Shown here: positions 26,708-34,209 of the stretch, in pieces
How positions within the stretch are numbered: position 1 is the stretch's first letter
Layout: each line of letters opens with the position of its first letter
Virus record (IMG/VR): IMGVR_UViG_3300019360_000023
Location: 1 to 35,645 of that record
Length of the DNA stretch: 35,645 bases
Strand: one strand, 5' to 3'
DNA from: a virus
Translations under genes and position numbers: made by a program
The notes under the pieces: model-generated
What the model was told of the DNA's origin: nothing
Databases searched by the model: none
What the model saw: the letters and a program-made list of their open reading frames with translations, nothing else

Positions 26708-27043
26708 TTAGGCCTCCTCGCGCTGGGTCAGAGAGTCGACCAGGAACCGAAAGACCTCAGGCGAGTCGCGCATCGCGGCGCCGATCGACGCCGTCAGCTG
26801 CCGGACGATCGTCTCCTCCTTCTCGTCGTCGACGTCGATGTCGTGCACGTTGATCGCTGCATGGAGGAACTCGTGCAGCAGCGCGAGCGCCGATCGCGCG
26901 GGCCCGTGCGACGTGTCGACGTGGATCCGCTGGCTCGGGTGCAGCACTTCGCCGTAGAGGTTACGGCTCGCCGCGTCGCGACCCGCGAACTCGGCGATCG
27001 CGTAGTCGAGCGCTCCGACCTTGACCGACGCCGGCAGCTTCAT
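26708..27043 (-). CDS. HExxH metallopeptidase-like phage protein
   Basis: 111 residues. It has a short beta-type N-terminus (VKVGALDYAIAEFAG), a middle with SQRIHVDTS, and the zinc-binding helix LLHEFLHAAINV with H57, E58 and H61. The family is small, common in phage early regions, and related to ImmA/IrrE or SprT-like proteins. Its substrate is unknown. The third ligand is unclear; E75-E77 (DEKEETIVRQL) is a candidate. The ATG overlaps the upstream stop as ATGA. This is the second HExxH protein in the window; the other, at 33016-33591, sits in the immunity region. Confidence 0.75.
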   Translation of the reverse strand: MKLPASVKVGALDYAIAEFAGRDAASRNLYGEVLHPSQRIHVDTSHGPARSALALLHEFLHAAINVHDIDVDDEKEETIVRQLTASIGAAMRDSPEVFRFLVDSLTQREEA

Positions 27044-31461: not shown

Positions 31462-31501
31462 CCAGGCCCGCTGCCCAACGCCTAAGCGCCTATCAGGGCG
31501 C

Positions 31502-31542
31502 GGTGCCAAAAGTTCGCGGTAGCGTTGGCAGCCGTTGGCACC
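31502..31542. promoter_or_regulatory. Inverted repeat GGTGCCAA ... TTGGCACC
   Basis: GGTGCCAA at 31502-31509 is the exact reverse complement of TTGGCACC at 31535-31542; a further TTGGCA at 31525 is exactly 10 bp before the TTGGCA at 31535. CGCCTA also occurs twice at 31479 and 31487. This lies between divergent genes starting at 31411 and 31579 and could be an operator. No clear -35/-10 pair is seen. Confidence 0.4.
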
Positions 31543-31578
31543 TCTCAGGTCCCACAACGAGCGCACGGGGAGGCCTTG

Positions 31579-32166
31579 ATGGTGGCGGTGCTTTCGATCA
31601 TGAGCCGGGCCGTGTACGTGGTCGCGCTCGGATGCGCGGCGTATGCCGCCTGGCTGGCGCTTCGGGTGGTCCAGCTGGCGGAGAGCGCGCCGCAAGAAGC
31701 CGCCGGCTTCGCCATGGCGATCGCCTGGGCCGTGATCCCGTATGCAGGCGCGCGCGCGGTCGAGAAGCTCTGCAGTCCGCTGCCCGAGGGATCGGCCCGA
31801 GCTGCCGCTGGCGTGATATTCGCGGGCGCTGGGCTGTTCATCGCGTTCGCCGTGATCTCGAGCTTTGCGGAGCGCCCGAGCACCCGGTCCCACGAAGGCG
31901 AGCGGCCGATGCCGGGACGGGCCGCGGAACCGATCGCTCAAACCGCCGCGATCTGCGCGCACTGGAACGGTAGGCTGCCGAGACAACGCGTCGATGAGCT
32001 CGTCGAGATGGTCCGCTCGAATCCTGAGCTCACGCGCAAGGCCGAATGCTCTCGACGCCACGCCGCGTACTACGTCGGCCTGATGAACGAGTGGTGCGAC
32101 GTGCCCTACGGCGACCAGACGCTGCTGTTCGTGCTGAAGCAGCGCCTCGGCGAGCGGTGCCCGTGA
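31579..32166 (+). CDS. Membrane protein with three predicted helices
   Basis: 195 residues from the ATG at 31579, which has GGGGAGG five bases upstream; an upstream extension to 31525 lacks such a site. Three hydrophobic segments lie at about 5-30 (AVYVVALGCAAYAAWLAL), 42-60 (FAMAIAWAVIPYAGA) and 78-100 (GVIFAGAGLFIAFAVISS). The remaining 95 residues are soluble with C125, C156 and C173. A small membrane protein beside the repressor genes might be a superinfection-exclusion or lysogenic-conversion factor, but the sequence itself gives no function. It converges with the minus-strand HTH gene, three bases apart. Confidence 0.75.
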   Translation: MVAVLSIMSRAVYVVALGCAAYAAWLALRVVQLAESAPQEAAGFAMAIAWAVIPYAGARAVEKLCSPLPEGSARAAAGVIFAGAGLFIAFAVISSFAERPSTRSHEGERPMPGRAAEPIAQTAAICAHWNGRLPRQRVDELVEMVRSNPELTRKAECSRRHAAYYVGLMNEWCDVPYGDQTLLFVLKQRLGERCP

Positions 32167-32168
32167 GC

Positions 32169-32399
32169 TCATGCCGCCGCTCCGTCGCCCTCGCGCGGGA
32201 GCCGAAACGCACGAAGAGGAATCTCCGTGACCTCGGCCCAGTGCTCCTCGGTGTCCCGCGCGAGCTCGCGCTCACCCCGTAGCCAAAGCGACAAGAACGT
32301 CTGGGAGCAGTCGAGCCTCTCGGCCGCTTGCCTCTGCGTGAGTTCTTCGCGCGCCATCCAGCGACGCACACGTGCGCGGTCTTCTCGATCGTGCGACAT
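32169..32399 (-). CDS. Small XRE-type HTH regulator (Cro-like)
   Basis: 76 residues. MAREELTQRQAAERLDCSQT then FLSLWLRGERELA (about 15-45) is a clear helix-turn-helix: TQRQAAERL is the positioning helix and SQTFLSLWL the recognition helix. The operator copy at 32402-32418 lies only two bases upstream of its ATG, so either the mRNA is nearly leaderless or the operator overlaps its own translation start, and autoregulation is likely. It is divergent from the 151-residue HTH gene, as in cI/cro switches. Which one is the maintenance repressor cannot be told. Confidence 0.8.
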   Translation of the reverse strand: MSHDREDRARVRRWMAREELTQRQAAERLDCSQTFLSLWLRGERELARDTEEHWAEVTEIPLRAFRLPREGDGAAA

Positions 32400-32401
32400 C
32401 T

Positions 32402-32418
32402 GAGCACCACGGGTAATC
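32402..32418. promoter_or_regulatory. Operator copy 1 (GAGCACC-ACG-GGTAATC)
   Basis: This 17-bp imperfect palindrome (GAgcACC against GAttACC on the other strand) recurs at 33577-33593 and 33611-33627. It stands between divergent HTH genes, adjacent to the start of the minus-strand one. It is followed by CTAACCCGG, giving a second overlapping dyad CGGGT...ACCCG. Confidence 0.65.
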
Positions 32419-32498
32419 TAACCCGGGGTCGAGGTCAAGCCCGAAATATCACCCAGCGGGTTTGGACGGCGAACACCGCCAGTTCTCAAACTCCCGGG

Positions 32499-32954
32499 AT
32501 GTCGCCGAAGCGCCGCTGGTATCAGCGCCTCAAGGGCCGGTTCCCGAAGGCGCTCGAGGTCGCCTTAGCATCGGACAACGAGCGACAGCGGAACTTCGCA
32601 TGGCTGTATCTCGACGTCGTGGGCGCCGACGGAACGCAGCGAGCTTTCGCAGAAAAGCTCGGCTGGGATCCGGACAACGGCCAAAGCCGTGTGCACCAGT
32701 ACCTCTACGGGATGAAGGCGATTACCGACGACGCCGTAGAGCAGATGGCGGCCGCGCTCGGCCGGCCAAGAATCGACTTCATTCGGCCGTGCCATCCGCT
32801 GGGCTTCGACATGCGCGGCCCGCTGGGCTCGATCGAGCCGGGCGACGAGGAGTGGGATCGCATGTGGGCGTACCACGCGACGGTGCGTCACGACGGCTCG
32901 TACGAAGACCCCAAGGTCCTTCGCGAAAAGAAGCCCTACTACTTCCCGGAGTGA
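32499..32954 (+). CDS. HTH repressor-like protein (ImmR position)
   Basis: 151 residues from the ATG at 32499; no good ribosome site precedes it, and an upstream open frame to 32328 overlaps the operator region and is rejected. The segment DGTQRAFAEKLGW, SRVHQYLYGMKAITDDAVEQ and MAAALGRP (about 44-90) is an XRE-like HTH. The C-terminus is acidic then aromatic (EWDRMWAYHATVRHDGSYED). It directly precedes the ImmA/IrrE-like gene, which in ICEBs1-type systems encodes the protease that destroys the neighbouring repressor. So this is the most likely lysogeny repressor. HTH class is clear; identity as repressor is inferred from context. Confidence 0.7.
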   Translation: MSPKRRWYQRLKGRFPKALEVALASDNERQRNFAWLYLDVVGADGTQRAFAEKLGWDPDNGQSRVHQYLYGMKAITDDAVEQMAAALGRPRIDFIRPCHPLGFDMRGPLGSIEPGDEEWDRMWAYHATVRHDGSYEDPKVLREKKPYYFPE

Positions 32955-33015: not shown

Positions 33016-33591
33016 GTGATTCTCTCCGGGGCTTACACCTGCATTGCGCGAGCAGACGAGATTCACCGCAGGATCGGCTACACGGGAGGAGCGTTCCCGC
33101 TCCGCGAGTTCCTGAGAACTGAGCCGACCTTCGAGCTCCGCGCGGCCCCTCCTGGCGTCCTCCCTGAGGGCGCGGACGCGGCGATGCGACGAGACTCGGC
33201 CGGCGCGCTCGTTCTGTACAACCCCAGAGCGCCAGTCCAGCGGATTCGCTTCACGATCGCCCACGAGATCGGGCACGCCCTTCTGCACCATGCGGGCGAA
33301 CACCGGCGCGCGCCACGCCGAGCACTCCCGCCGCGCGAAGCGAAGCGCGAGGACCAGGCCGACCTGTTCGCCGCCGAGCTCCTGATGCCGGCCTGGGCGA
33401 TCGACCGCGCTCTCCCGACGGACTGGAGAGAGCACGGAGGGGCAGCAGTCGATTTCGAGCGCCAGGTCCGTCGCCTGGCGGCCCTGTTCCGGGTCTCCCG
33501 CGCGGCGATGCGGATCCAGCTCGAGCACTACCTCCACCTCCGCGAGACCTCGCTCGGACTGCGGGCCGGAGCGGTTGAGCACCTACGGTAA
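33016..33591 (+). CDS. ImmA/IrrE-family metallopeptidase
   Basis: 191 residues from a GTG at 33016. The zinc-binding helix is FTIAHEIGHALLHH (H83, E84, H87), and the second motif EDQADLFAAELLMP (112-125) carries the usual third ligand and is the hallmark of ImmA/IrrE peptidases. VLYNPRAPVQRIRF precedes the HExxH helix as in the family. In known systems such an enzyme cleaves an HTH repressor to start induction. It lies 61 bases after the HTH repressor-like gene and ends inside operator copy 2. Its likely substrate is that neighbour. Confidence 0.9.
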   Translation: MILSGAYTCIARADEIHRRIGYTGGAFPLREFLRTEPTFELRAAPPGVLPEGADAAMRRDSAGALVLYNPRAPVQRIRFTIAHEIGHALLHHAGEHRRAPRRALPPREAKREDQADLFAAELLMPAWAIDRALPTDWREHGGAAVDFERQVRRLAALFRVSRAAMRIQLEHYLHLRETSLGLRAGAVEHLR

Positions 33592-33593
33592 TT
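33577..33593. promoter_or_regulatory. Operator copy 2 (GAGCACC-TAC-GGTAATT)
   Basis: It overlaps the stop codon of the ImmA-like gene. It lies 34 bp (start to start) from copy 3, a little over three helical turns, so two repressor dimers could bind on the same face and cooperate. Confidence 0.65.
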
Positions 33594-33599
33594 TTCTTG

Positions 33600-33629
33600 T
33601 TGACACGTTTGAGCACTGTGGGTAATCAT
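33600..33629 (+). promoter_or_regulatory. Early rightward promoter TTGACA-18-AATCAT
   Basis: A perfect -35 TTGACA at 33600-33605 is followed after 18 bp by AATCAT at 33624-33629, four of six bases of TATAAT. The stretch is AT-rich compared with its surroundings. Operator copy 3 covers the spacer and part of the -10, so a bound repressor would exclude RNA polymerase. It drives the gene at 33655, whose GAGGTGA ribosome site is adjacent. Confidence 0.65.
33611..33627. promoter_or_regulatory. Operator copy 3 (GAGCACT-GTG-GGTAATC)
   Basis: Same 17-bp motif as copies 1 and 2, placed within the promoter at 33600-33629. Together with copy 2 it forms a two-site operator ahead of the rightward operon. 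Confidence 0.7.
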
Positions 33630-33654
33630 CACGCCACCTGACCGAGGTGAGCCG

Positions 33655-34209
33655 ATGGATGCCCTCCCGACCGCGCAGCAGTTCGACCGCACCTCCGTCG
33701 ACTGGATCCTCGCGCGCACGAACCCGACGCCCCCGGCGCTGCGCTGGGGCTGGGAGCGCGCCGACGAGATCGCCGAAGAGGACGAGGAGCGCTGCGCGAA
33801 TCCCGCGTGCCACGGCCTGCTGCTGACGGCAAAAGAGGACGGCGAACACCTCGTCCACGACGGCGGCGACTCCCGCATCCGCGTCTGCTCGCGCGCGTGC
33901 GCGGCAGCGATCGAGCACTGCGCCGGTGTTCGCGCCGAGCGAGCGCGCGCGCGGCGCCGCTCGACGAATCCTCGCGTCGCCGCGGAGGCGACCTCCATCG
34001 AGATGGTGGCGCGCGCGTGCCGCTTCGCGACGGGCCGCGCGACTCCCGCGGACCGATTCGCGCTCTTCTATGTCGGCATCAGCGTGCTCGATCGCACGTG
34101 GGCGACCGATCGCGAGATCGTGCTGCGCTACGCGCGCCTCGCGCAGATCGACCGCGACCTCGCGCTGTACGGCCGCAGTCCGAAGCCGCCGGCCGCGGAG
34201 CTCGCCTGA
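33655..34209 (+). CDS. First gene of rightward operon, Cys-rich, unknown
   Basis: 184 residues, ATG at 33655 with GAGGTGA upstream. A probable zinc site lies at about 47-85 (RCANPACHG with C47 and C52, then RVCSRACAAAIEHC). The second half is helical and basic (AERARARRRSTNPRVAAEAT; TDREIVLRYARLAQIDRDLA). It is the first gene below the repressor-controlled promoter, where N, Cro or antirestriction-like proteins occur, but it matches none that I recognise. Confidence 0.75.
   Translation: MDALPTAQQFDRTSVDWILARTNPTPPALRWGWERADEIAEEDEERCANPACHGLLLTAKEDGEHLVHDGGDSRIRVCSRACAAAIEHCAGVRAERARARRRSTNPRVAAEATSIEMVARACRFATGRATPADRFALFYVGISVLDRTWATDREIVLRYARLAQIDRDLALYGRSPKPPAAELA

Follow-up and report, generated by a model that had tools for sequence, protein, structure and literature searches.

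Repeated imperfect dyads in the immunity region of an uncultured siphovirus are very probably landing sites for the phage's own repressor

A short sequence repeated in two control regions of a GC-rich phage is more than a product of chance. Its confinement to these regions and its replacement by another dyad in a sister phage lead us to read the copies as phage operators, very probably the landing sites for the phage's own repressor and thus the on/off switch of a temperate virus. The window, that is the stretch of DNA analyzed here, is the whole IMG/VR virus record of 35,645 bases (IMGVR_UViG_3300019360_000023; GC content 69%). The leftward-encoded genes are those of a siphovirus (terminase, portal, major capsid, tape measure and J-type tail fibre proteins), and the lineage is uncultured. 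The regulatory genes (Table 1) comprise the leftward gene HTH76 and the rightward gene HTH151, a divergent pair with a 99-bp gap between them, followed on the HTH151 strand by the ImmA gene directly downstream and by a second intergenic stretch of 95 bp behind ImmA.

Table 1. Genes, proposed operators and early promoter of the immunity region (positions in the window)
Feature	Position	Strand	Basis
HTH76, 76-aa XRE-type HTH protein (HTH_3/HTH_31)	32169..32399	-	Pfam, PHROG
Operator O1, GAGCACCACGGGTAATC	32402..32418	+	exact motif match; dyad match
Operator O4, GAACACCGCCAGTTCTC	32471..32487	+	sole additional match of the symmetric dyad in the record
HTH151, 151 aa, divergent HTH_3 domain	32499..32954	+	sub-cut-off Pfam; six-frame scan
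ImmA/IrrE-type zinc metallopeptidase (HEIGH), 191 aa from GTG	33016..33591	+	Pfam, PHROG, PDB
Operator O2, GAGCACCTACGGTAATT	33577..33593	+	exact motif match; dyad match
Early promoter P_E, TTGACA then TAATCA (17 bp) or AATCAT (18 bp)	33600..33629	+	
Operator O3, GAGCACTGTGGGTAATC	33611..33627	+	exact motif match; dyad match
First gene behind P_E, 184-aa Cys-containing protein	33655..34209	+	no family match

The initial annotation had reported GAGCACY-N3-GGTAATY three times in the window, once beside the divergent HTH genes and twice behind ImmA. Exactly three copies of this motif (GAGCACYNNNGGTAATY) are present in the whole record, all on the plus strand and at these places, the latter two being spaced by 34 bp from start to start. 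A scan of the entire 35.6 kb yielded no further match at one or even two mismatches. At up to three mismatches six matches were counted in total; this is about what chance would give (3.75 expected; six or more in 16 of 100 shuffles), so that matches at this level carry no meaning. Comparing each site with its own reverse complement revealed a 17-bp imperfect dyad, RANNACY-N3-RGTNNTY, of which the motif represents one face. This dyad occurs four times in the 35,645 bp where 0.11 matches are expected, and none of 100 shuffles reached four, although the three sites and a listing of 17-bp repeats were already known when the pattern was drawn up, which makes these statistics partly post hoc and leaves the fourth match, O4, as the only new evidence. 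O4 lies 11 bp upstream of the HTH151 ATG, within the 99-bp gap, where the chance of a dyad match is by proportion about 0.0003. The four sites thereby form two pairs, O1/O4 between the divergent HTH genes, with O1 2 bp from the start codon of HTH76, and O2/O3 around a TTGACA promoter. O2 contains the ImmA stop codon and ends 6 bp before TTGACA.

The repeats also stood out when 17-mers from the two intergenic stretches were compared: the best triple had a lowest pairwise identity of 13/17, a value that none of 400 shuffles attained (their maximum was 11). When gapped 12-mers were ranked over the whole genome, the motif came no higher than ranks five and eight in a total of 7571 families; codon-type repeats occupied the top, the four families above the motif were scattered over tens of kilobases, and such word ranking is uninformative for the motif. 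Binding to palindromes upstream of the regulator's own gene is common among XRE proteins, as stated in a passage of PMC12565409. No paper on the operator sequence was found in the open-licence PMC literature, and the paired-operator patterns occurred in none of the viral_contigs or genome_contigs.

A scan for sigma-70-like promoters found one candidate only between 31400 and 33800 (2.4 kb; 0.2 expected), with TTGACA at 33600-33605 followed by an 18-nt spacer and AATCAT. The earlier reading of a TTGACA-18-AATCAT promoter with an operator copy over its spacer thus held as to the promoter and the overlap, O3 covering 13 of the 18 spacer bases and four of the six bases of AATCAT, but probably needs adjustment in its -10 element. 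The window and the sister phage described below have in common a core of GTTGACWCGYTT..GTAA..CGAGGTSAGCC followed by ATG, and their alignment sets the -10 element at the common GTAA (TAATCA in the window, TAAGTT in the sister). As GTAA stands at the same 17-bp distance in both promoters, a 17-bp spacer is favoured. Transcripts from P_E would be expected to start near 33634-33637. The 184-aa protein encoded behind P_E had no match in family searches (Pfam, PHROG, NCBIfam), and the start and leader of its gene are weakly similar in the sister. The window ends 2 kb behind P_E.

Scans of viral_contigs with the portal, early-gene and MCP sequences retrieved a single close relative, a 28.4-kb record (G001, the sister phage). 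Among the 57 loci found with TerL, G001 alone was close (81%), the next being at 59%, and no prophage relative was found in genome_contigs. The sister is 78.7% identical to the window at the nucleotide level over 8.5 kb (18.2-26.7 kb; head genes about 79%), and the match continues in pieces to 31.58 kb, including a common leftward early arm, after which the immunity regions differ. At up to one mismatch the window's motif is missing from G001. There, another dyad, GTAAG-N5-YTTAC, which is absent from the window, is found across the whole record at three places and no others; for a somewhat broader version of it, chance would give 0.07 matches in the 19.5-kb part. One copy abuts the start codon of the leftward HTH gene, and the other two bracket a TTGACT that precedes the first rightward early gene, at a distance of 8 bp on the upstream side and 16 bp on the downstream side. 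These sites flank the rightward HTH gene, with O1 on one side and O2/O3 on the other, and a degenerate copy with three mismatches is found between the two HTH genes. The blind 17-mer shuffle test is weak for G001, with 13 of 300 shuffles reaching the observed value.

The leftward HTH proteins of the two phages do not align, and the best match of the rightward ones has an E of 0.018 over 10 residues. Promoter core and ribosome-binding stretch are similar in the two phages, while the operators surrounding them differ. Since dyads and HTH proteins differ around a similar promoter core, operator sequence and HTH genes have evidently been exchanged together, and promoter core and layout stayed, a pattern that rests on this one pair and, for the O1-type place only, on one distant relative. 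Joint exchange indicates that the repressor is encoded by the phage, and it is in line with the earlier suggestion that this switch has an operator sequence of its own. G001 is probably heteroimmune to the window phage. The regulatory regions of three distant TerL loci were inspected (G008, G014 and G015). G014 and G015 have no divergent HTH pair. In G008 (L125 1915-1970), such a pair has AGGTTGC-N8-GCAACCT against the leftward HTH start codon and two copies of GCAACNTGT beside it, a third operator-like sequence at the same place.

We consider it likely that a dimeric HTH repressor, encoded by the phage, uses O1, O4, O2 and O3 as its operators. In the lysogen, this protein (most likely HTH151) would occupy O2/O3 and thereby silence P_E, which would read rightward into an operon like that of lambda PL. 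The same protein on O1/O4, between the divergent genes, would shut HTH76 and tune its own synthesis, and HTH76 would act as a Cro-type competitor for the same sites. Upon induction, ImmA would cut or displace the repressor, thereby freeing P_E. Throughout this scheme we infer binding, the identity of the repressor, the target of ImmA and the direction of every effect. The initial annotation had spoken of a complete genetic switch; the repeats do behave like the operators of a phage switch, but that picture had missed O4.

The arrangement resembles the immunity region of lambda in mirror image. In the lambda record, cI and rexAB lie between OR and OL, cro is divergent at OR, N lies beyond OL, and cI, rexAB and N are all on one strand. 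In the window, HTH76 takes the place of cro, O1/O4 that of OR, HTH151 that of cI, ImmA that of rexAB and O2/O3 that of OL. In both phages, the (proposed) repressor operon has a cluster of 17-bp imperfect dyads on either side, with divergent HTH genes at one cluster and, at the other, an overlapped early promoter on the strand of the repressor operon. The lambda PL operon carries recombination/integration genes, and a comparable operon is seen behind the promoter of the sister, where the genes downstream of O2/O3 code for small proteins, a protein resembling recombination directionality factors (PF18897, 102 bits) and an SMC/Rad50-like ATPase; a tyrosine integrase gene closes the operon. Unlike lambda, the window has two rather than three sites per cluster, clusters about 1.2 kb rather than about 2.4 kb apart, and ImmA where lambda has rexAB. 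The half-site positions A2, A5 and C6 are kept in 8 of 8 half-sites of the window and in 12, 9 and 11 of the 12 in lambda, respectively. A lambda-type operator sequence can be set aside: the lambda matrix ranked the window's sites 5, 13, 39 and 126 and did not single them out.

Assignment of the metallopeptidase is firm (Peptidase_M78, PF06114, 4.4e-19, 68.9 bits at a cut-off of 22), its HEIGH being a HEXXH motif. PHROG matches were to metallo-protease and others, PDB relatives are CapP and IrrE, and a scan gave 57 distant ImmA loci. Family searches covered 17 records (the window, G001 and 15 of the more distant TerL loci). Peptidase_M78 exceeded the cut-off in the window alone, and none of the 17, window and sister included, had a Peptidase_S24 domain of the LexA/CI type. 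The 28.4-kb record of the sister, itself a fragment, yielded no ImmA, and as it keeps the operator layout, the layout as such does not need ImmA; this suggests that it persists where ImmA is absent. The immRA operon of ICEBs1 diverges from Pxis, whereas the early promoter of the window lies behind immA on the same strand. A small HTH regulator gene followed by an ImmA/IrrE metallopeptidase gene, with no self-cleaving domain, is common to the window and to the ImmR/ImmA systems of ICEBs1, TnSmu1 and ImmAR-type prophages, as far as these are described in passages of PMC8960796, PMC10233336 and PMC12637031. HTH151, unlike the regulators of those systems, has no detectable relationship to ImmR (no NCBIfam match, and no PDB sequence match up to E 1). 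According to the same passages, ImmA cuts ImmR, with a RecA-dependent trigger in ICEBs1 (PMC8960796; PMC10233336), and pneumococcal prophages carry either C1-type or ImmAR-type control (PMC12637031). The initial proposal of an HTH/ImmA pair in place of a RecA-cleaved CI is reasonable with regard to protein type; RecA itself is a different matter, because the part of PMC10233336 on ICEBs1 has ImmA activated by the RecA-dependent damage response, so that lack of the cleaved CI type does not exclude RecA.

Other phages offer partial parallels. Operators lie between two HTH genes in N15 and PY54, and N15 has a second operator pair at a distant promoter, which, unlike that of the window, overlaps the repA promoter; the N15 locus named immA is a secondary immunity region and not an ImmA protease (all from the pertinent text of PMC4488713). 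The kind of switch is already known, and the operator specificity is new.

Which of the two HTH proteins is the repressor can be argued from several sides. HTH76 is a fair XRE match (Pfam HTH_3 7.3e-5, 23.2 bits at a cut-off of 23; PHROG transcriptional repressor, 1.1e-7) and little more than an HTH. HTH151 matches HTH_3 below the cut-off of 23 (0.0049, 17.3 bits; in the six-frame scan 6.1e-5, also below cut-off), the domain spanning residues 46-90 and the C-terminal part comprising about 60 aa. No relatives of HTH151 were found, and the single match to HTH76 (L004) was dismissed as a short HTH match in a contig that seems unrelated. In a set of 50,697 phage records, neither protein had a relative and the immunity region had no DNA match. 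Structures predicted without alignment gave a pLDDT of 55.5 and a best PDB match of E 0.08 for HTH151, and, for HTH76, a single extended helix that matched nothing in PDB even at E 10; nothing was drawn from these models. Both proteins align a Gln with Gln33 and Gln44 of lambda CI, residues with a role in DNA contact. On the strength of the lambda mapping, its size and its ImmA neighbour, we take HTH151 to be, with reasonable probability, a CI/ImmR-type repressor and HTH76 a Cro-type protein.

The same operators could serve with reversed roles, HTH76 being the lysogenic repressor, autoregulated through O1 at its own start codon, and HTH151 and ImmA being the first rightward lytic genes. The position of O1 argues for this, because it is closer to the HTH76 start than lambda OR1 is to cro and has a spacing more like that of OR3 to cI. 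An O1-type site stands against the leftward HTH start codon in all three records with a divergent HTH pair (at 2 nt in the window, 0 nt in G001 and 0 nt in G008). Furthermore, the stretch from ImmA to the early gene showed no intrinsic terminator, so that HTH151-ImmA transcripts might run into the early operon. Against it stand the small size of HTH76, with hardly any sequence beyond the HTH, and the position of lambda PL, which likewise follows the cI operon on its strand. Moreover, ImmA partners are encoded directly upstream of immA in the systems described in passages of PMC10233336, which here points to HTH151. Overall, we regard the reversal as rather unlikely.

Explanations that do without a phage repressor fare worse. 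Many phages use host factors, and O4 holds GAAC-N7-GTTC, a dyad of a general LexA-like look, so the sites might bind a host regulator, for example of the LexA type, and tie the phage to the host damage response. A host factor should have preserved the sequence, unless the hosts differ, whereas the roughly 79% identical sister lacks these sites and has another dyad in place together with other HTH genes; we hold this explanation to be quite improbable. That the repeats are non-regulatory, as relics of local duplication or products of chance, could be argued from three copies lying within 1.2 kb and having a few flanking bases in common. Against this, the fourth site fits the dyad rather than a direct repeat, a different dyad occupies the matching places in the sister, and the mismatch scan, dyad count and 17-mer shuffles make chance unlikely for the exact copies. 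We give a non-regulatory origin scarcely any credence.

Returning to operators for a phage-encoded repressor, the window gives an uncultured GC-rich phage lineage a concrete and testable immunity system with a new operator sequence. In the pair formed with G001, the layout is constant while operators and DNA-binding proteins change, which makes the two phages a natural test of how immunity specificity and induction mode (ImmA or not) are exchanged. We tentatively entertain the idea, without favouring it, that both are exchanged as one cassette and that the induction device can be removed from an otherwise fixed switch. On its right, such a cassette would end close to where ribosomes bind ahead of the first early gene. 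Both sisters would keep the mirror-image lambda layout and the promoter core, having exchanged repressor, Cro-type protein and operator sequence, with ImmA in the rex position of one only.

Some further features of the surrounding DNA were noted. A 213-aa gene with a match to PHROG 12304 (31525-32166, plus strand) lies between HTH76 and the leftward arm. Because it converges with HTH76, the HTH76 transcript would comprise a single gene, in contrast to that of lambda cro. A 111-aa protein gene (26711-27043, minus strand; PHROG 1233) overlies a sub-cut-off Peptidase_M78 match (14.8 bits), and in the matching region of the sister a gene with HEVIH is found (L062 6600-6947), possibly making this a second small metallopeptidase-like gene common to both phages. 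Between the leftward arm and a divergent small membrane-protein gene, window and sister have a conserved inverted-repeat set, GGTGCCAA ... GTTGGCA ... GTTGGCACC (31500-31545 of the window; L062 1804-1902 of the sister). This set is alike in both despite their differing immunity operators, and a factor common to both phages may bind it to control the leftward arm.
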